Shown: positions 25,254 through 33,384 of the stretch, in pieces
How the letters are laid out: each line of letters begins with the position of its first letter
Position numbering within the stretch: position 1 is the first letter of the stretch
Origin: Thiobacillus sp.
GTDB taxonomy: Bacteria > Pseudomonadota > Gammaproteobacteria > Burkholderiales > Thiobacillaceae
DNA: 33,384 bases
Assembly (NCBI GenBank): GCA_018262815.1
Contig: JADFDN010000022.1
Coordinates: 1-33,384, forward strand
Direction of reading: 5' to 3'
Notes under the pieces: generated by a model
What the model saw: the letters and a program-made list of their open reading frames with translations, nothing else
What the model was told of the DNA's origin: nothing
Databases searched by the model: none
Translations under genes and position numbers: made by a program

Positions 25254-28200
25254 TCATGCAGGGTTGATGCTTTCGACGGCACGGCGATGGGGGGTGCCGC
25301 CATTTTCCAGCAATTGATGAATAGCGCCGAAGCGCAGGTAGAGCGCAGGCACGACGATCATGTTCAGCACCGTCGAGCTCAGCAGCCCGCACAGGATCAC
25401 CACCGCCATCGGCGCCTGGATCTCGCTGCCCGGTTGGCCCGCGGCGAGCGCCAGCGGCACCAGCGCGAGGCCGGCGGCGAGCGCGGTCATCAGGATCGGC
25501 ACCAGCCGCTCCTCGGCGCCGCGCTTCACGGCTTCCGTCGCGTTCGTCACGCCCTCGTGCTCCACCAGGTGGTGGATGTGCGAGATCATCATCACGCCGT
25601 TGCGCGTGGCAATGCCGAACAGCGTGATGAAGCCGATGATCGACGCCACCGACAGCACGCCGCCGGCGGCGAACACGCCGATCACGCCGCCGATCATCGC
25701 GAGCGGCAGGTTGAGCATGACCAGGAGCGCGTCGCGCGCGGTGCGGAAGGCGATGAAGAGCAGCAGGAAAATGCCCACCGTCACCGCCACGCCCAGCACC
25801 AGCAGCGTGCGCGAGGCCGCTTCTGCGCTTTCGAACTGGCCGCCGTATTCGATGTGGTAGCCAGCCGGCAGCGTGACTCCGGCGGCCACCGCCTTGCGGA
25901 TGTCGGAGACCACGCTCGCCAGATCGCGCCCGGCGACGTTGGCCATCACCACCATTTTGCGCTGCACGTTCTCGCGGCTGATCGAGTAGGGCGCGCGGTC
26001 GTTGCGGATGTCGGCCAGCGCGGAGAGCGGCAGCCGCGCGCCGTCGGTGGTGGTGATCAACGTCGCGCGCACCGTGTCGATGCTGGCGCGCGTCGACGGG
26101 TCGAAGCGCAGCACCAGGTCGAAGCTGGCCTGGCCCTGCTGCACGCGATCGACCGGCATGCCGGAAAACGCGGTCTCGATCGCCTCCGACACTTCCCGCA
26201 TCGACAGGCCGTGCTGCGCCAGCGCCGCGCGGTCGAAGCGGATGGTGAGGAAAGGAATGTCGGTCTGCTGCTCGTCGGTAACGTCGACCGCGCCGGGAAT
26301 CTCCTGCACGACCGACTTCACGCTTGCGGTCAGCCGGCGCAGTTCGCCGAGATCGGGACCGAAGATCTTCACCGCGATGTTGGAGCGGCTGCCGGACAGC
26401 ATGTGGTCGATGCGGTGCGAGATCGGCTGGCCCACCACAATTTGCGTGCCGGGCACGCTGGAGAAGTCGGCGCGCAGCGCGGCGAGGAAGTCTTCCTTGC
26501 TTCGCTCTCCCATCTTCAGCGTCACCTCCATTTCCGACGCCGACACGTCCATCGCGTGCGGGTCGCCCTCGGCGCGGCCGGTGCGGCGCGCGGTGGCGAC
26601 GACTTCAGGATGCGACAGCAGGATGTTCTCCACCATGCGGCCGAGGCGGTCGGATTCTTCCAGCGAGGTGCCGGGCAGCGTCGCCATGCCGACGGTGAGC
26701 GTGCCTTCGTTGAAGTCGGGCAGGAAGGCGCGGCCGGCAAAGCCCAGCGCGACCAGCGCGACCACCAGCGTGGCGACACTGATGCCGGCCACGGCTTTCC
26801 AGCGCACGACGGTCGCGTCGAGCACGCGACGGTAGCCGGCCTTCAAGCGATGGATGAAGCGCGGCTCGATCGATTCGCGCACCGTCTTCGAGTTCGGCAG
26901 CCACAGCGCCGCCAGCACCGGCGTCACCGTGACCGCCACCGCGAGCGAGGCGGCGAGCGAGACCACGTAGGCGAGGCCCAGCGGCGCCATCAGCCGCCCT
27001 TCGACGCCGGAGAGGAAGAACAGCGGCAGGAACACCAGCATGATGATCAGCGTGGCGAACACGATCGAGCCCTGGATCTCGCGCGTGGCCTCGTACACCA
27101 GGTGCAGCATGTTGACCTGCTGCTCGGCCGGTTTGGCGCGGTTCTCGCGCAGCCGGCGCACGATGTTCTCGACCACGATGATCGCGTCGTCGACCAGCGC
27201 GCCGAGCGCGATGGCCATGCCGCCCAGCGTCATGGTGTTGATCGTCGCGCCCATCGCCTTCATGGCCAGGACCGCCGCCACCAGCGACAGCGGGATGGCG
27301 ACGAGGCTGATCGCGGTGGCGCGCGCCGACAGCAGGAAGGCGAACACGATGGCCACCACCAGCACCGCGCCTTCGACCAGCGCTTTCATCAGGTTGTCGA
27401 TGGAGACGCGGATGAAGTCGGCCTGGCGGAAGATGTGGCGTTCGATCTTCATGCCCTTCGGCAGGCCGCTCTGGATTTCTTCCAGCGTGGCGTCGAGGCG
27501 GTCGGTCAGCTCCAGCGTGTTGGCGCCCGGCTGCTTCTGGATGCCCAGCACGACCGCCGGCTTGCCGTTATGCGAACCGACGCCGCGCGTGGGTGCGGGG
27601 CCGATGGCGACCTCAGCGACGTGCCGCACCAGCACCGGCTGCCCGGCCTGCCTGCTGATGACGGTGTCGCCGATGTCGGCCAGCGTCGCGATGCGGCCGA
27701 GGCCCTGGATCAGATATTCCTGGCCGGCCTCGACCATGAAGCCGGCCGAGGTGTTCTGGTTGGCGGAGCGCAAGGCTTCGGCGATCTGGTCGACGGTGAG
27801 GCTGTAGGCCGCCAGCCGCTCGGGATTGAGCGTCACCTGGAACTGCTGGGTGTCGCCGCCGATCGGCAGCACCTCGGCCACGCCCGGCACCGCCAGCACG
27901 CGGCGCTTGATCACCTGCTCGGCGGTGTTCTTCAGCGCCATGCCGTCGTGCTGGTCTGAGGCAAGCGCGATGAACAGGATTTCGCCCATGATCGACGCCG
28001 CCGGCGCCATGCCGGGCGCCGGGATGTCGGCCGGCAGCGACGCGCGAGCGAGCTGCAGGCGCTCGGCGACCACTTGGCGGGCCTTGTAGAGATCCGTGCC
28101 CCACTCGAACTCGACCGTGACGACCGACAGGCCGATCTTGGTCGACGAGCGCACCCGGCGCACGTCGGGCGCGCCGTTCAGCGCCGTCTCGATGGGGAAG

Positions 28201-28397
28201 GTGACGAGGTTCTCGACGTCGGTCGGCGCCATGCCGTGCGCCTCGGTGACCACGGTCACGCTGGGCGCGGTGAGGTCGGGGAAGACGTCGACCGGGGTTT
28301 TCGACGCCTGCCAGCCGCCCCAGGCCAGGATCAAAACCCCGGCCAGGACGACGAAGAGCTTGTTGCGCAGCGACCACGCAATGATGTGTCCGATCAT
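25254..28397 (-). CDS. czcA: CzcA/CusA-family heavy-metal RND efflux pump
   Basis: A 1047-residue inner-membrane proton-driven pump. Its N-terminus is typical (MIGHIIAWSLRNKLFVVL, then TPVDVFPDLTAPSVTVVTEAHG), as are two sets of membrane helices around large periplasmic loops and the HME-RND block FGIATRNGVMMISHI. The TM4 motif at 397-411 reads ALGALVDDAIIVVEN. Cupriavidus CzcA has DFGIIVDGAVVIVEN there, so the first Asp is replaced by Ala, as in the CusA pattern AIGxxVDxA. The proton-relay Asp (D403) and Glu (E410) are kept. A divalent or monovalent heavy metal is the likely substrate, but not safely Zn/Co/Cd. The symbol reflects family and operon position. An 83-nt gap with a small inverted repeat separates it from czcB. 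Confidence 0.9.
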   Translation of the reverse strand: MIGHIIAWSLRNKLFVVLAGVLILAWGGWQASKTPVDVFPDLTAPSVTVVTEAHGMAPTDVENLVTFPIETALNGAPDVRRVRSSTKIGLSVVTVEFEWGTDLYKARQVVAERLQLARASLPADIPAPGMAPAASIMGEILFIALASDQHDGMALKNTAEQVIKRRVLAVPGVAEVLPIGGDTQQFQVTLNPERLAAYSLTVDQIAEALRSANQNTSAGFMVEAGQEYLIQGLGRIATLADIGDTVISRQAGQPVLVRHVAEVAIGPAPTRGVGSHNGKPAVVLGIQKQPGANTLELTDRLDATLEEIQSGLPKGMKIERHIFRQADFIRVSIDNLMKALVEGAVLVVAIVFAFLLSARATAISLVAIPLSLVAAVLAMKAMGATINTMTLGGMAIALGALVDDAIIVVENIVRRLRENRAKPAEQQVNMLHLVYEATREIQGSIVFATLIIMLVFLPLFFLSGVEGRLMAPLGLAYVVSLAASLAVAVTVTPVLAALWLPNSKTVRESIEPRFIHRLKAGYRRVLDATVVRWKAVAGISVATLVVALVALGFAGRAFLPDFNEGTLTVGMATLPGTSLEESDRLGRMVENILLSHPEVVATARRTGRAEGDPHAMDVSASEMEVTLKMGERSKEDFLAALRADFSSVPGTQIVVGQPISHRIDHMLSGSRSNIAVKIFGPDLGELRRLTASVKSVVQEIPGAVDVTDEQQTDIPFLTIRFDRAALAQHGLSMREVSEAIETAFSGMPVDRVQQGQASFDLVLRFDPSTRASIDTVRATLITTTDGARLPLSALADIRNDRAPYSISRENVQRKMVVMANVAGRDLASVVSDIRKAVAAGVTLPAGYHIEYGGQFESAEAASRTLLVLGVAVTVGIFLLLFIAFRTARDALLVMLNLPLAMIGGVIGVFAAGGVLSVASIIGFITLFGIATRNGVMMISHIHHLVEHEGVTNATEAVKRGAEERLVPILMTALAAGLALVPLALAAGQPGSEIQAPMAVVILCGLLSSTVLNMIVVPALYLRFGAIHQLLENGGTPHRRAVESINPA

Positions 28398-28400
28398 GGT

Positions 28401-28437
28401 GTCATGCCTCCGAAGGGCCGCCCCGAGAGGGCATGAC
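28401..28437. repeat. inverted repeat in the czcB-czcA gap
   Basis: GTCATGCC (28401-28408) is complementary to GGCATGAC (28430-28437), with a C/G-rich 21-nt interior. It would form an mRNA hairpin just upstream of the czcA start, and could be a processing or stability element that sets the ratio of pump to adaptor. Confidence 0.5.
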
Positions 28438-28480
28438 TAGCGAACGTAAGTGAGCGAAATGAAGTCATGGTATCCCCCGG

Positions 28481-30049
28481 TCAGTGCGCATGGCCGTGGC
28501 CGATTTGCGCGGTGCCGGTCGAGGCGAGCTTGACCAGATAAGCGCCGCGCGAGACCACGCGCTGCCCCGGCGCGAGGCCGTCGAGCACCTCGACCCAGTC
28601 GCCTTCGCGCGCGCCCAGTCTGATCTGCCTCCGCTCGAAGGATTCGCCGCCGGTCATCACGAACACCACGCTCATGCCGCCTTCATCGAGCACGCTCGAC
28701 GCCGGGATCGCCACCGCCTCGCGCGCGCCGCCGGCGAATACCTGCGCCTGCACCGCCATGCCGATGGGCAGCGCCAGATCGCCCGGCGTGAACTCGAACA
28801 CCACCGGAACGGTGCGCGTCGTGGCATCGACCACGCCGCCGACGGCGACGAGCTTGCCGTTTTTCCCGGCAACGATCTCGACGCCGGCTTCCTTGCCTGC
28901 GACCTTGAACGCGGCCCCGCTCGGGCTGGCCAGCCGCGCCGCGTCGGATTCGGGCACGCGCAGTTCCAGCCACAGCCGGCTGCGATCGGCGATATGGAAC
29001 AGCAGCGCGCCTTCCTGCGCGAACGCGCCGGGCGACACGCGCACATCCGCCAGCGTGCCGGACACCGGCGCCCGCACCGGGATGCCGCCACCAGCGCCGC
29101 CGTATTGACCGAGGCGCTGCTGCGTTGCGTTCAGTTCGGCGCGTGCCAGGGCTGCGGCCGCACGCGCGGCGAGCACGCGTTTCTCGGGCACCGCTTCCTC
29201 GCGGTACAGCGCTTCCATGCGCGCCAGTTCCTGTTGCGCGAGATCACGCTCGACACGGGCCTTGTTCGCTGCCGCCCGCAGCGTGGCGAGATCGGTTTCG
29301 CCGCCCAGACGCGGCACCAGATAGGCGAGCAGCTGGCCTTTCTTCACCTGCTGGCCCAGACGCGGGAAGCTGCCCGTGGACTGAATCTGCCCGGCCGCCG
29401 CCGCGGTGATCTGGGCCTCGCCGTCCGGACGCGCGCGTAGCACGCCGGTTGCGGCGACTGCGGTGCGGATCGGGCGCGTGACGACCTCACTGGTGGCGAA
29501 GTCGACCTTCCACTGCTGTTCCTTGGTGAAGCCGATGCCTTCGTCGTCGTGCGGCGCCGGCTCGGCGTCGGCGGCCTTGCGGTCGGCATAGACGGTGAAG
29601 GGGCCGAGCTCGTGCGTGACACTGAATTCGGGCGTGACGACTTCGATCGACAGTTCGCGATCGCCGGCATGCTTCGGTACCACTTCGGGGCGGAAGATGC
29701 CGGGCTGGCTGGCCTTGTCGACGCTGAACACTTCATCGGGCTGATCGCCACCGGTCAGGCGAACGCTGACCTTGGCGGCGGTGAGCGCCCGGAAGTCGGC
29801 GAGCGTGGTCAGGTGCGCGGCGAAGGCGGATGTTTCGCCGACCACCAGGCGCGGGAACTCGACGAAGAGTTCGGTGCGGTCGGTGAAATGGGTGATCTTC
29901 TCGCCGCCGGCGCCATGGCCATGCGCGTCCTCGGCTTCGGCTTCGGCTGCGGGGGGATGGCTGCCGTCTGCGGCGTGTTCGTGGTCCGCCTCGCTGCAGC
30001 CGATCAGGAAGAGGGCGGCACACAGGGATGCAATAAGGGTCTTGTTCAT
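28481..30049 (-). CDS. czcB: CzcB-like periplasmic adaptor lipoprotein (RND family)
   Basis: A 522-residue membrane-fusion protein. The signal peptide ends in a lipobox (LIGCSEADHEHAADG), so the mature protein is an inner-membrane-anchored lipoprotein. The N-terminal extension (about 20-190) carries HEH and HGHG metal-binding clusters and a beta domain. After it comes the classic adaptor core: VAATGVLRARPDGEAQITAAAAGQI, a helical hairpin (about 255-325), RAPVSGTLADVRVSPGAFAQEGALLFHIAD, and the membrane-proximal domain. The C-terminus ends GHGHAH. Its role is to link CzcA to the CzcC channel, and CzcB-type N-terminal domains also bind metal. The start overlaps the czcC stop as ATGA. Confidence 0.92.
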   Translation of the reverse strand: MNKTLIASLCAALFLIGCSEADHEHAADGSHPPAAEAEAEDAHGHGAGGEKITHFTDRTELFVEFPRLVVGETSAFAAHLTTLADFRALTAAKVSVRLTGGDQPDEVFSVDKASQPGIFRPEVVPKHAGDRELSIEVVTPEFSVTHELGPFTVYADRKAADAEPAPHDDEGIGFTKEQQWKVDFATSEVVTRPIRTAVAATGVLRARPDGEAQITAAAAGQIQSTGSFPRLGQQVKKGQLLAYLVPRLGGETDLATLRAAANKARVERDLAQQELARMEALYREEAVPEKRVLAARAAAALARAELNATQQRLGQYGGAGGGIPVRAPVSGTLADVRVSPGAFAQEGALLFHIADRSRLWLELRVPESDAARLASPSGAAFKVAGKEAGVEIVAGKNGKLVAVGGVVDATTRTVPVVFEFTPGDLALPIGMAVQAQVFAGGAREAVAIPASSVLDEGGMSVVFVMTGGESFERRQIRLGAREGDWVEVLDGLAPGQRVVSRGAYLVKLASTGTAQIGHGHAH

Positions 30050-31257
30050 GGAGTGACACTCCCGGTCAATAAATCAAATTCAATGCGGGCATCGCGTGCC
30101 CGCTTTTCAAGTTCGAGCGCGGTGGTTTCCGTCTCCAGTGCGCCGCGGTAGGCGTCGAGCAGTTCCAGCAGACTGGATTCGCCGCCCCGATAGGCGGTTT
30201 CCGCGATGCGCAGCAATTCGGGGGAAGCCGACACCGCACGGCTGCGATAGTCGATTGCAGTGGCGCGCAGGCCTTCTGCCTGGCGATACAGGCCGCGCAG
30301 TTCGACTTCGGCGCGGCTCATCGCCAGGCGGTATTCGGCGCGTGCCTGCAGGGCCTCGGCCGCCGCGCGCTGCTGCCCGGCCTGCTGGCGGTCGAACACC
30401 GGCAGTGGAACGGAAAGCGACAGCGCCATGCCGTTATCCTGGGTGCTGCCGTTGTCCACGTACTTGGGGCCGATCCCCACGGTCACATCGGGAATGCCGC
30501 CGCGCCTTGCGGCACGCCCGTCCAGATCGGCCGCCTCCGCTCGACGCGACAGCGCCTGCAGGTCGGGACGCTGATCGAGGCCGGTCAATGCCGTGTCGAC
30601 CGGAGGCAGGGGGGAAGGCAAAAGCGCGCCTTCAAGACGGGGTACATCGGCTGCTGCGCCGGTGAGCGCCATCAGACGCGCCCGGGATCGATCCAGCTCG
30701 GCGCGCTCGGCGGCCAGCCGCGCTTCCGCCGTCTGGCGTTCGCGTGAAAGACGGCGCTGGTCATAGCCCGACGTCTCGCCCGCACGGGCCAGCTTCGTGA
30801 TCGTGCCCTCGATCTGCGCGAAGCGCTGCGCCCAGATTTCGGTCGCCCGGATGGTCTGCTGCCGGAACAGGACTTCATGAAAGCGGCGGCGGATTTCGGC
30901 AGCCATGTCGAGTTGGCGCGCAGCGTTGCCGGCGGTGACCGATGCCACCCGGCGGCTGGCGGCCTCGCGATGCAGCCCGCGGCGCCCGGACAGGTCGAAG
31001 GTTTGCCCGAGCATCCAGGTTTGCTCGACCGAGTCTGGCGAGCCGTCGACACGGTCGCGGCTGTAGCTCAGGGTGGGATTGGGGAACAGGCCGGCGGCAA
31101 GCGCCTCGGCCTCGGCGGCTTGCACCGCGCCGCGTTCCAGATCGGCGAGATCGGCGCGCGCCAGTCCCAGGCGCACCGCCTCGGCCTCGGTCAGCGGGGT
31201 TTGCGCCCACACGGCCAGCGGCAGCGCGAGCAGACATACGGATAGCGTGAATCGCAT
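30046..31257 (-). CDS. czcC: CzcC-like outer-membrane factor
   Basis: A 403-residue TolC-type channel subunit. Its signal peptide is MRFTLSVCLLALPLAVWA-QTPLTEAEAVRLGLA. Two helical repeats follow, the first with ALAAGLFPNPTLSYSRD, the second around LDQRPDLQALSRRAEAADLDGRAARR and IPDVTVGIGPKYVDNGS. GESSLLELLDAYRGALE is the conserved C-terminal motif of CzcC/CusC-type channels. The ATG at 31257 puts the signal peptide first; the frame from 31329 adds an unlikely polar leader. It overlaps czcB by 4 nt and follows czcI by 160 nt. Confidence 0.9.
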   Translation of the reverse strand: MRFTLSVCLLALPLAVWAQTPLTEAEAVRLGLARADLADLERGAVQAAEAEALAAGLFPNPTLSYSRDRVDGSPDSVEQTWMLGQTFDLSGRRGLHREAASRRVASVTAGNAARQLDMAAEIRRRFHEVLFRQQTIRATEIWAQRFAQIEGTITKLARAGETSGYDQRRLSRERQTAEARLAAERAELDRSRARLMALTGAAADVPRLEGALLPSPLPPVDTALTGLDQRPDLQALSRRAEAADLDGRAARRGGIPDVTVGIGPKYVDNGSTQDNGMALSLSVPLPVFDRQQAGQQRAAAEALQARAEYRLAMSRAEVELRGLYRQAEGLRATAIDYRSRAVSASPELLRIAETAYRGGESSLLELLDAYRGALETETTALELEKRARDARIEFDLLTGSVTP

Positions 31258-31352
31258 GGTTTTTCCTCGTGATGAATCAATGCAACGAGAAACCGGCGCG
31301 CGATTGCAGGAGGCGACTTGAAGCCGCAATGAAACACGCGCTCGCCGGTCAG

Positions 31353-31823: not shown

Positions 31824-32456
31824 TCATACCTTGGCGCCACGTATGGGCTGAACCAGCGTTGCATCCGCACAGCCCTGGCTGCGGAATGCCTGAATCACGT
31901 AGTGTTTGACGCCGCGTGCCGACAGTTCCTGTGCCAGGCCCGAGACATCAGCGTCGGTCAGCAGGGCAGGATGCACGGTGGTGCGGATTTCGTGGGCGAC
32001 GCCCGATGCCAGCACAGCTTCGAGGCTGGCCAGCGCCGGGACGCCGCTGCCGGCGACGCCGGTGATGCGCGGGTAGTCGGCGAACGGCGCCTTCGCATCC
32101 AGCCCGACCCAGTCGACAAGCGGAAGCACCTCGGCGAGCCGGCGCGGATAGGCGCCGCCGGTGTGCAGGCCGATCTTGAAGCCGAGCGCGCGCACCTCGC
32201 GCATCGCGTCGGCCAGTTCGGGCTGCAGCGTCGGCTCGCCGCCCGAGAACACCACACCGTCGAGCAGGCCCTGGCGGCGGCGCAGAAAGGCCATCACGTC
32301 GTCCCAGGGGATTTCGCTGTCGCCGCGCGCGGGAATCAGGTGCGGGTTGTGGCAATAGCCGCAGCGCCAGGGACAACCCTGGCAGAACACCACCGCGGCC
32401 AGCATGCCGGGCCAGTCTGTGGTGGAGAGCGGGGTCAGGCCGCCGACGCGGAGCAT
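31824..32456 (-). CDS. nrdG: Anaerobic ribonucleotide reductase activase (radical SAM)
   Basis: A 210-residue radical-SAM activase that uses S-adenosylmethionine and a 4Fe-4S cluster to place the glycyl radical on NrdD. The cluster motif CxxxCxxC is C28, C32, C35 in FCQGCPWRCGYCHNP. The SAM-contact GGEPT is in VVFSGGEPTLQPEL, and the start GGLTPLSTTDWPG is typical of the family. It is encoded after nrdD and the small glycyl-radical gene, but 150 nt away because an inverted-repeat element lies between. No ribosome-binding site is visible before its ATG. The gene ends 43 nt before czcI. Confidence 0.92.
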   Translation of the reverse strand: MLRVGGLTPLSTTDWPGMLAAVVFCQGCPWRCGYCHNPHLIPARGDSEIPWDDVMAFLRRRQGLLDGVVFSGGEPTLQPELADAMREVRALGFKIGLHTGGAYPRRLAEVLPLVDWVGLDAKAPFADYPRITGVAGSGVPALASLEAVLASGVAHEIRTTVHPALLTDADVSGLAQELSARGVKHYVIQAFRSQGCADATLVQPIRGAKV

Positions 32457-32481
32457 GAGGTTGTCCAGGGAAGGAAGAAGT

Positions 32482-32603
32482 TGCTCCCTCTCCCCTTGTG
32501 GGAGAGGGTTGGGGAGAGGGGGGGAATTAAATCGAGCAACTGCGATAAATCCTGCGACTGCTCACCCTCTCCCCAACCCTCCCCCCTCAAGGGGGAGGGA
32601 GCA
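32482..32603. repeat. 122-bp inverted-repeat element (REP/MITE-like)
   Basis: Two 39-nt arms (32482-32520 and 32565-32603) are inverted copies, matching at 33 of 39 positions by eye, around a 44-nt AT-richer centre. Each arm also folds on itself: CCCTCTCCC (32486-32494) with GGGAGAGGG (32500-32508), and CCCTCCCCC (32577-32585) with GGGGGAGGG (32591-32599). The C/T-rich sequence is of the dispersed REP/MITE type seen in many proteobacterial genomes. It encodes nothing and sits inside the nrd operon, where it could weaken read-through to nrdG. Confidence 0.85.
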
Positions 32604-32609
32604 TCTGGC

Positions 32610-32792
32610 TTACCCCAGGCGGCAACGGCCTTCGACGAAGAAACGCCGCTCGCGATGCTCGCTCTTCTTGCCCTTGTTGAAGCTCGTCACCGGGCGGTGA
32701 TAGCCCATCACGCGGGTCCACACTTCGCAGCGGGTGCGCTCCTCGTCTTTCAGCGTGAGCGGGGCCTGGGTCGGGTCGGTCATGTCGTTCAT
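32610..32792 (-). CDS. Detached glycyl-radical domain of anaerobic ribonucleotide reductase (60 aa)
   Basis: A 60-residue protein whose core, RCEVWTRVMGYHRPVTSFN followed by GKKSEHRERRFF, is the C-terminal glycyl-radical segment normally fused to NrdD (compare the RxxGY motif of class III reductases). G30 is the expected radical residue. It has its own strong ribosome-binding site (AAGGAG, 7 nt before the ATG). It is in the same frame as nrdD, which ends 15 nt earlier at a TAA. This could be a genuine split gene, with the small chain docking into the large one as GrcA docks with pyruvate formate-lyase, or a nonsense-derived split kept functional by re-initiation. The ribosome-binding site and intact motif favour a functional separate gene. 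Confidence 0.8.
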   Translation of the reverse strand: MNDMTDPTQAPLTLKDEERTRCEVWTRVMGYHRPVTSFNKGKKSEHRERRFFVEGRCRLG

Positions 32793-32807
32793 CTCGGTCT
32801 CCTTGGG

Positions 32808-33384
32808 TTATGCGGCAACAGCGCGCTTGCGGGACAGGGCTTCCTCGTCGCACGCGGGGCAGAACTCATGCTCGCCGGCGAGGTAGCCGTGTTTGGGACA
32901 GATGGAAAATGTCGGCGTGATGGTGATGTAGGGCAGGCGGAAGCGCGTCAGCGCGCGGCGCACCAGCTTCTTGCAGGCTTCCGCCGACGAGATGTGCTCG
33001 GACATGTAGAGATGCAGCACGGTGCCGCCGGTGTACTTACGCTGCAGATCGTCCTGCCGCTCGAGCGCCTCGAACGCATCGTCGGTGAAGCCCACCGGAA
33101 GCTGCGACGAGTTGGTGTAGTAGGGCGCGTCTTCGGTGCCGGCCTGCAGGATGCCGGGATAGCGCTTGGCGTCTTCCTTCGCGAAGCGGTAGGTGGTGCC
33201 CTCGGCCGGCGTGGCTTCCAGGTTGTACATGTGGCCGGTCTCTTCCTGGAAGGCGGCAATCCGCCCGCGGATGTGGTCGAGCAGGCGCACCGCGAAGTCG
33301 TGGCCCCATTCGGTCGTGATGTCGTGCTGATCGCCCGTGAAGTTGCGGATCATCTCGTTGACGCCGTTCACGCCGATGGTTGAG
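32808..33384 (-). CDS. nrdD: Anaerobic ribonucleoside-triphosphate reductase, C-terminal part of large chain (5' truncated by window edge)
   Basis: The frame is open to the window end; the first whole codon is at 33383-33381. The protein end reads STIGVNGVNEMIRNFTGDQHD, RFAKEDAKRYPGI, GTEDAPYYTNSSQLPVGFTDD, YTGGTVLHLYMSEHISSAEACKKLVRRAL, and a zinc-ribbon-like tail CPKHGYLAGEHEFCPAC. These are conserved class III NrdD segments; the enzyme makes dNTPs from NTPs without oxygen. The chain stops (EALSRKRAVAA) just after the zinc site, before the glycyl-radical motif, which is supplied by the next gene. The GTG at 33371 is internal, not the start. Confidence 0.92.
   Translation of the reverse strand, partial: STIGVNGVNEMIRNFTGDQHDITTEWGHDFAVRLLDHIRGRIAAFQEETGHMYNLEATPAEGTTYRFAKEDAKRYPGILQAGTEDAPYYTNSSQLPVGFTDDAFEALERQDDLQRKYTGGTVLHLYMSEHISSAEACKKLVRRALTRFRLPYITITPTFSICPKHGYLAGEHEFCPACDEEALSRKRAVAA

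Follow-up and report, generated by a model that had tools for sequence, protein, structure and literature searches.

A class III ribonucleotide reductase of Thiobacillus and its relatives with a predicted radical glycine on a separate small chain

The nrdD gene at the edge of the window, as the whole analysed stretch of 33,384 nucleotides from a Thiobacillus sp. contig is called here, stops before any glycyl-radical motif is reached, and the motif appears in a small ORF directly behind it. This raises the question of whether the class III (anaerobic) ribonucleotide reductase encoded here consists of two chains, with the radical glycine on a separate chain of about 60 residues. On the comparisons described below, this reading has a probability of roughly 0.86. 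In the literature searched, with most subscription journals outside its scope, no description of a stand-alone NrdD radical subunit was found. The small gene is already labelled 'nrdD' at NCBI and is, as far as seen, annotated and apparently unexplained.

Gene arrangement in the window

The minus strand shows the gene order nrdD, small ORF and nrdG, the last encoding the cognate activase of a class III ribonucleotide reductase. The nrdD frame enters at the window edge (33383), ends with ...SICPKHGYLAGEHEFCPACDEEALSRKRAVAA-TAA, whose stop codon lies at 32810-32808, and encodes a chain that finishes with the zinc ribbon and 13 further residues, upstream of any radical motif. The small ORF (ATG...RVMGYHRPVTSFNKGK...) contains 60 codons, from 32792 to 32610, and begins 15 nt past this stop in the same frame. 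The region contains the following features:

32808..33383, minus strand: C-terminal 191 residues of the NrdD large chain, which runs off the window (PF13597 positions 357-530, NF006126 470-657)
32850..32900, minus strand: zinc-ribbon motif CPKHGYLAGEHEFCPAC at the end of the large chain, read from the sequence
32799..32804, minus strand: putative ribosome-binding site AAGGAG, within the 15-nt gap between the nrdD stop and the small ORF, read from the sequence
32610..32792, minus strand: predicted stand-alone glycyl-radical subunit of NrdD, 60 aa (PF13597, 32.9 bits, profile 532-562)
32703..32705, minus strand: codon of the candidate radical glycine, G30, in the motif RVMGYHRP, read from the sequence
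31824..32456, minus strand: nrdG, radical-SAM activase, 210 aa (TIGR02495 NrdG2, 220 bits against a cut-off of 131)

The original prediction had read the same TAA, ribosome-binding site and in-frame RVMGYHRP ORF, and PF13597 confirms it: the profile is divided between the upstream ORF and the small ORF, which places the break between the zinc ribbon and the radical loop, and the small ORF alone beats the Pfam NRDD cut-off (26.2 bits). R[VI]xG[YF] shows four matches in the six frames of the window, and a glycyl-radical context is found in the small ORF alone. The candidate radical glycine is invariant in the 19 alignment rows. In the 14 large chains compared, the C, H, G, Y, C and C of the zinc ribbon, a predicted zinc-binding element by family knowledge of NrdD, are invariant, as are M390, C391, C392 and R393.

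The source genome is a Thiobacillus-like MAG of 2.5 Mb in 168 contigs, 82% complete. The large chain was read as two pieces on two contigs, the N-terminal nrdD piece (PF13597 2-309) being located at the end of contig C53, where it contains the finger-loop cysteines in the motif MCCR. Summed over the pieces, the NRDD homology covers the barrel, the zinc ribbon and the radical loop of a class III ribonucleotide reductase; the glycyl-radical motif, which in this class ends the same chain, is absent from the large chain and present in the pair. A second NRDD copy, such as the complete nrdD elsewhere that the original prediction had named as evidence against itself, was not found in the 82% of the genome recovered, which also contains one class I/II-type large-subunit gene (PF02867).

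The locus resembles class III NrdD (PF13597; NCBIfam NF006126/TIGR02487; T. maritima, phage T4 and P. copri structures) in its family, ATP-cone, MCCR double-cysteine finger loop, zinc ribbon, radical loop and adjoining NrdG. Unlike the solved NrdD, it shows the radical loop as a separate gene, with the zinc ribbon kept on the large chain. Two further observations concern the neighbouring DNA. Between the small ORF and nrdG there is a 42-nt G/C-rich inverted repeat of REP-like look (32479-32520 and 32565-32606), 83% complementary and with a 44-nt loop. From 25254 to 31329, on the minus strand, three long ORFs (1047, 522 and 427 aa) resemble in size and sequence a metal-efflux RND operon, with putative pump, membrane-fusion and outer-membrane parts.

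Distribution and independence of the two genes

NRDD is present in 34 of 60 relatives, the source genome included, and is split in 33 of them: 26 belong to the same genus, all split, and eight belong to other families of the order, of which seven are split and one (G039) contains only a fused E. coli-like NrdD. The typical PF13597 coverage in these relatives is about 2-530 plus 532-562, and four genomes known in pieces only (G019, G021, G022 and G025) are split too. Among 30 loci from relatives, 28 have the small gene immediately behind the stop of the large one, one is fused and one has a distant small gene (L009); in L021 the small ORF, which starts 15 nt past the large stop, is cut short by the contig end.

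In GTDB genomes, 583 stretches gave a match and 578 were confirmed, the best 80 of which were kept. These 80 contain Thiobacillus, Ralstonia, Thauera, Pseudomonas, Stutzerimonas, Stenotrophomonas, Chromatiaceae and others, and also MAGs named Verrucomicrobiota and Omnitrophota. Among them 78 are split, none is fused and two lack a large gene in the locus, counts in which conservation is inflated and fused forms are perhaps under-sampled, as the GTDB loci, like the viral loci described below, were found via the conserved motif and the 80 nearest to the query kept. The large chain lacks the radical motif in all 78 split loci. This named set overlaps the set of relatives (L039, for instance, is L017), so that the two are not independent, and L100 and L101, with the same coordinates and identity, look like near-duplicates.

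An even draw of 397 Pseudomonadota genomes, the source genome included, gave 24 with a match: 17 are split and seven are fused, four of the fused showing weak scores (E 3e-4 to 1e-3) and the motif RVIGYLKR. Loci L147-L150 were labelled fused by hand and then checked in sequence. In a class-level sample 12 of 140 genomes matched, two of the 12 with long fused frames by table, and the one genome looked at on the sequence level (G198) is split; the argument here makes no use of this sample. Splits are annotated on plasmids of Bradyrhizobium and Shinella, on pHG1 of C. necator H16 and on pSULKU01 of the campylobacterote Sulfuricurvum kujiense, and fused forms among the plasmid records belong to Acidiphilium and Actinomyces. 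Judged by these sequences, the split is found across scattered Pseudomonadota and some other phyla. The original prediction, which allowed for similar splits in related genomes, understated their number, and the contrary outcome that it had named, fused genes in the closest relatives and a break in this genome alone, is not what the close relatives show.

Several single loci depart from this pattern. L144 (genome G369) is a split pair with the variant motif RSMGF instead of RVMGY in the small chain. In L093 (2687-5698) the large-chain frame has 1003 aa and its match is interrupted at reference residue 290/291 by about 300 extra residues, perhaps an intein. Genome G607, whose completeness is not given, has a small gene without any large one, and on pALVIN01, a plasmid of Allochromatium vinosum, a small gene (L126, 4001-4141) stands as an orphan, with a large nrdD nowhere on the plasmid.

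The spacing of the two genes is irregular. In the 78 split named loci, with starts chosen by script, the small start, counted from the large stop, lies in frame 0 in 26 cases, in frame 1 in 27 and in frame 2 in 25; the gap ranges from -89 to 549 nt, with 12 negative values, and in 75 loci the small start has a loose Shine-Dalgarno match of at least four bases ahead of it. Several gaps contain further in-frame stops. In genome G043 (the L009 locus) the two genes are about 9 kb apart, and the small one stands immediately in front of a radical-SAM (nrdG-like) gene. In 22 Thiobacillus-genus sequences (21 different), found by NRDD homology with WTRVMGY also required by the script, pN/pS is 0.14 over 34 codons, and pN is at or above pS in one of 210 pairs; the values of 0.22 for the bacterial and 0.25 for the viral set are biased, both sets having been found through the motif. 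Frame use, spacing and pN/pS together show, at the level of sequence, that the small chain has a gene to itself, which in most cases has its own ribosome-binding site and in Thiobacillus is under purifying selection.

These data bear on two trivial explanations. That the break is an assembly error, as the fragmented source MAG might suggest, or a decaying pseudogene of a fused nrdD, retains almost no probability and is refuted by the same architecture in complete plasmid records such as pHG1 and pSULKU01, by the split relatives and by the pN/pS in Thiobacillus. It is scarcely more credible that stop-codon read-through or frameshifting yields one continuous protein, so that no real split exists: the two ORFs share a frame in the window and in a third of the split named loci (26 of 78), but the other frames are used about as often, the gaps vary and hold further stops, most starts have a ribosome-binding site and the genes of G043 are far apart. 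The even frame use and the displacement in G043 mean that read-through cannot be general, and for the out-of-frame and distant cases it is ruled out.

Relationship between the large and the small chain

The large-chain tree contains 51 rows, 44 split and seven fused; it was made by a quick method with a midpoint root and carries long-branch warnings (L143-L146 and L150 among them), and L147 and L148 gave no usable row. In this tree fused rows (L120, L122 and L143) are placed among split rows; the fused genes of Acidiphilium and Actinomyces sit inside groups of split rows, and the fused G507 pairs with the split Sulfuricurvum. At least four changes between the split and the fused label are present, and the tree may fit one split with later re-fusions as well as repeated splits. 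The fused forms placed among split rows show the radical loop within about 20 residues after the zinc ribbon. That the same two segments are fused in some orthologues and separate in others is evidence that they act together, and suggests that the two chains make up a single enzyme. The T. thioparus core was joined to the small chain, with one stop read as a residue, and modelled with AlphaFold2; the model has a mean pLDDT of 77 and a pTM of 0.80, and its best PDB match is T. maritima NrdD (4u3e, E 4e-25). The join forces proximity, and the predicted fold speaks for compatibility and does not demonstrate docking. By itself, the C. necator small chain has no sequence match in the PDB at E up to 1.

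In the proposed enzyme, the large chain would contain the ATP-cone (in most), the barrel, the finger-loop cysteines and the zinc ribbon, and the chain of about 60 residues would contain the glycine that NrdG turns into a glycyl radical. From family knowledge, NrdG would form this radical on the small chain, most likely when it is docked, and the radical loop would dock by the zinc ribbon and reach the MCCR active site of the large chain in the manner of the C-terminal loop of fused NrdD. The original prediction had likewise proposed a separate radical domain acting on another chain, and the conservation, the frame independence, the displaced gene and the fused orthologues lend it support.

A different role is that of GrcA, a small protein that backs up pyruvate formate-lyase (PFL) and carries the PFL-type glycyl-radical domain, presumably Pfam PF01228. 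The likeness drawn in the original prediction stands in part: GrcA/YfiD and T4 Y06I are small stand-alone glycyl-radical proteins that serve another chain, as the chain described here would, and occur in bacteria and phage. They are PFL spare parts of another family and with another partner, and the enzyme backed up by GrcA has a radical domain of its own, unlike the large NrdD chain of the split loci examined. Membership of the GrcA/YfiD family was rejected, the small ORF of the window matching only NRDD at E up to 1, and the large chains of the 78 split named loci do not resemble a partner with its own radical domain. It is very improbable that the small protein, instead of being a normal subunit, backs up a complete NrdD elsewhere in the way of GrcA, although its size and domain content are GrcA-like, one genome (G606) has a further small gene at a distance from its split pair, and another (G054) has a fused E. 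coli-type NrdD besides its split pair. G054 is the only one of the 33 split relatives with such a fused gene, no second NRDD was found in the source genome as far as it is complete, and the large chains that would be backed up lack the motif themselves. In bacteria, the small chain looks, from these comparisons, like an obligate subunit and not a repair part.

Another ribonucleotide reductase in two pieces, NrdJa/NrdJb, is B12-dependent, with no glycyl radical and no such small radical chain, and differs thereby from the split NrdD. The likeness lies in the enzyme being made as two polypeptides, as reported for this class II enzyme of P. aeruginosa in the available part of PMC4520616.

The plasmid pHG1 of C. 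necator H16 shows where the two readings of a radical site diverge. It encodes an NrdD of 676 aa (76,191 Da) and a separate 66-aa ORF, H16_RS32675, annotated nrdD. In the large chain, position 650 falls on the glycine of the zinc-ribbon HGY, and RVMGY (Gly36) sits in the small chain. In 1999, Siedow et al. reportedly described a 76.2-kDa NrdD of Alcaligenes eutrophus, in which G650A gave a null phenotype and G650 was proposed as the radical site. If that residue is reported correctly, what was taken for loss of the radical glycine was a change in the zinc ribbon, and the radical site published for C. necator NrdD looks misplaced. The available part of PMC2864759, which cites the 1999 study, goes no further than to say that NrdDG is essential for complete denitrification in C. 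necator, and a pHG1-free strain grows poorly on nitrate unless B12 is supplied. For P. aeruginosa, a 2025 metalloproteome describes NrdD as a 76-kDa homodimer, and its available part leaves a small chain unmentioned (PMC12284477).

Phage copies and the spare-part question

IMG/VR gave 154 matching stretches, of which 139 encode the small module, and the best 80 of these 139 loci were kept. Of these, 76 contain a stand-alone small ORF, the other four having missed the pattern of the script. A large NrdD ORF is found in none of the 80 loci, which extend no further than 6 kb to either side and are in many cases cut by a contig end. The whole records of 33 of these viral contigs, hand-picked among the longer ones (31-108 kb) and possibly fragments, as the phage contigs mostly are, all contain the radical module and no other NRDD piece, and one of the 33 contains a radical-SAM protein. 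The phrog_2 terminase profile matches 11 of the 33, six of these 11 best matches having internal stops, and also matches 11 of 14 control cellular genomes; the terminase matches lend modest support to a viral origin of the records. Only four viral loci with the split-type large chain came up in a scan for it, two of them with a separate small ORF after the large chain, and the ratio of four to 139 is a rough one, the two scans having used different peptide patterns. Isolated phages gave one record in 50,697, a weak hit annotated as an anaerobic reductase. Phage nrdD genes interrupted by introns or endonucleases are known, and the available part of that account makes no mention of the present split (PMC3653736).

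The shortest viral module reading has 42 residues. The modules keep the glycine, WTRVMGY and the flanking conserved positions much like the bacterial ones, both sets being found by motif. Six loci (L170, L171, L172, L182, L190 and L217) show a cysteine-containing N-terminal extension ahead of the module. No constant neighbour gene was seen among 80 ORFs flanking the module in 33 phage loci, picked by hand from 130: they include integrases, DNA polymerases, terminases, a portal and others, and none of the families listed (25 families of 129 and of 31) accounts for more than three of the 80. The best PHROG match of the small ORF of the window is PHROG 4132 (179 positions, unknown function; E 5e-9), which is also the best match of the five phage modules tested (E 7e-11 to 3e-5).

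Two small genes in bacteria adjoin genes of another kind: L055 (4752-4931) and L110 (1697-1852), second or orphan copies, lie beside radical-SAM/DUF4070 genes, in L055 with B12-binding as well; in L110 there follows a further NrdG-like radical-SAM gene. From this context, they possibly encode a radical subunit for another system.

Two accounts of the phage copies have to be weighed. Oxygen cuts glycyl-radical enzymes at the radical and kills the enzyme. In the split form it would cut the small chain only, and a fresh 7-kDa chain could bring a 76-kDa enzyme back to work; a phage would need just one gene of about 50 codons to gain deoxynucleotides. The small subunit is possibly exchangeable. There is about an even chance that only the 7-kDa subunit is lost to oxygen and can be replaced, and that phages exploit this by carrying the small subunit alone. 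The single match in each of the 24 matching Pseudomonadota genomes indicates that bacteria do not usually stock spares, and by analogy the phage-borne copies are closer to a spare part than the bacterial small chain is. According to the available part of Andorfer et al. (2021; PMC8683613), YfiD and Y06I are the only validated spare parts, both of PFL, and others may exist for other glycyl-radical enzymes.

The second account is that the phage copies are decoys, which occupy NrdD or NrdG and block deoxynucleotide synthesis of the host, or that they serve another radical enzyme. This is unlikely, though it keeps real weight: the large NrdD is absent from all 33 searched phage records and the radical-SAM protein from 32, and the copies L055 and L110 beside radical-SAM/DUF4070 genes would fit a partner of another kind. 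The glycine, WTRVMGY and flanking positions retained in the motif-found phage modules would, however, be needless for a blocker, and T4 Y06I is a working precedent with PFL (available part of PMC8683613).

With the radical glycine on a chain of its own, as preferred here, the split nrdD would be a natural case, present in hundreds of genome records (the 578 confirmed stretches), in which the fragile part of an enzyme for DNA precursors is a separate 7-kDa chain, and phage contigs carry just this fragile chain. It would propose a function for PHROG 4132, annotated as a phage family of unknown function, and would revise where the radical of C. necator NrdD is placed. Annotators and structural biologists would be warned that the 76-kDa NrdD of split bacteria, including strains of Pseudomonas and Stutzerimonas (L080, L115), lacks the radical glycine, and the spare-part question for NrdD becomes directly testable with two small genes.
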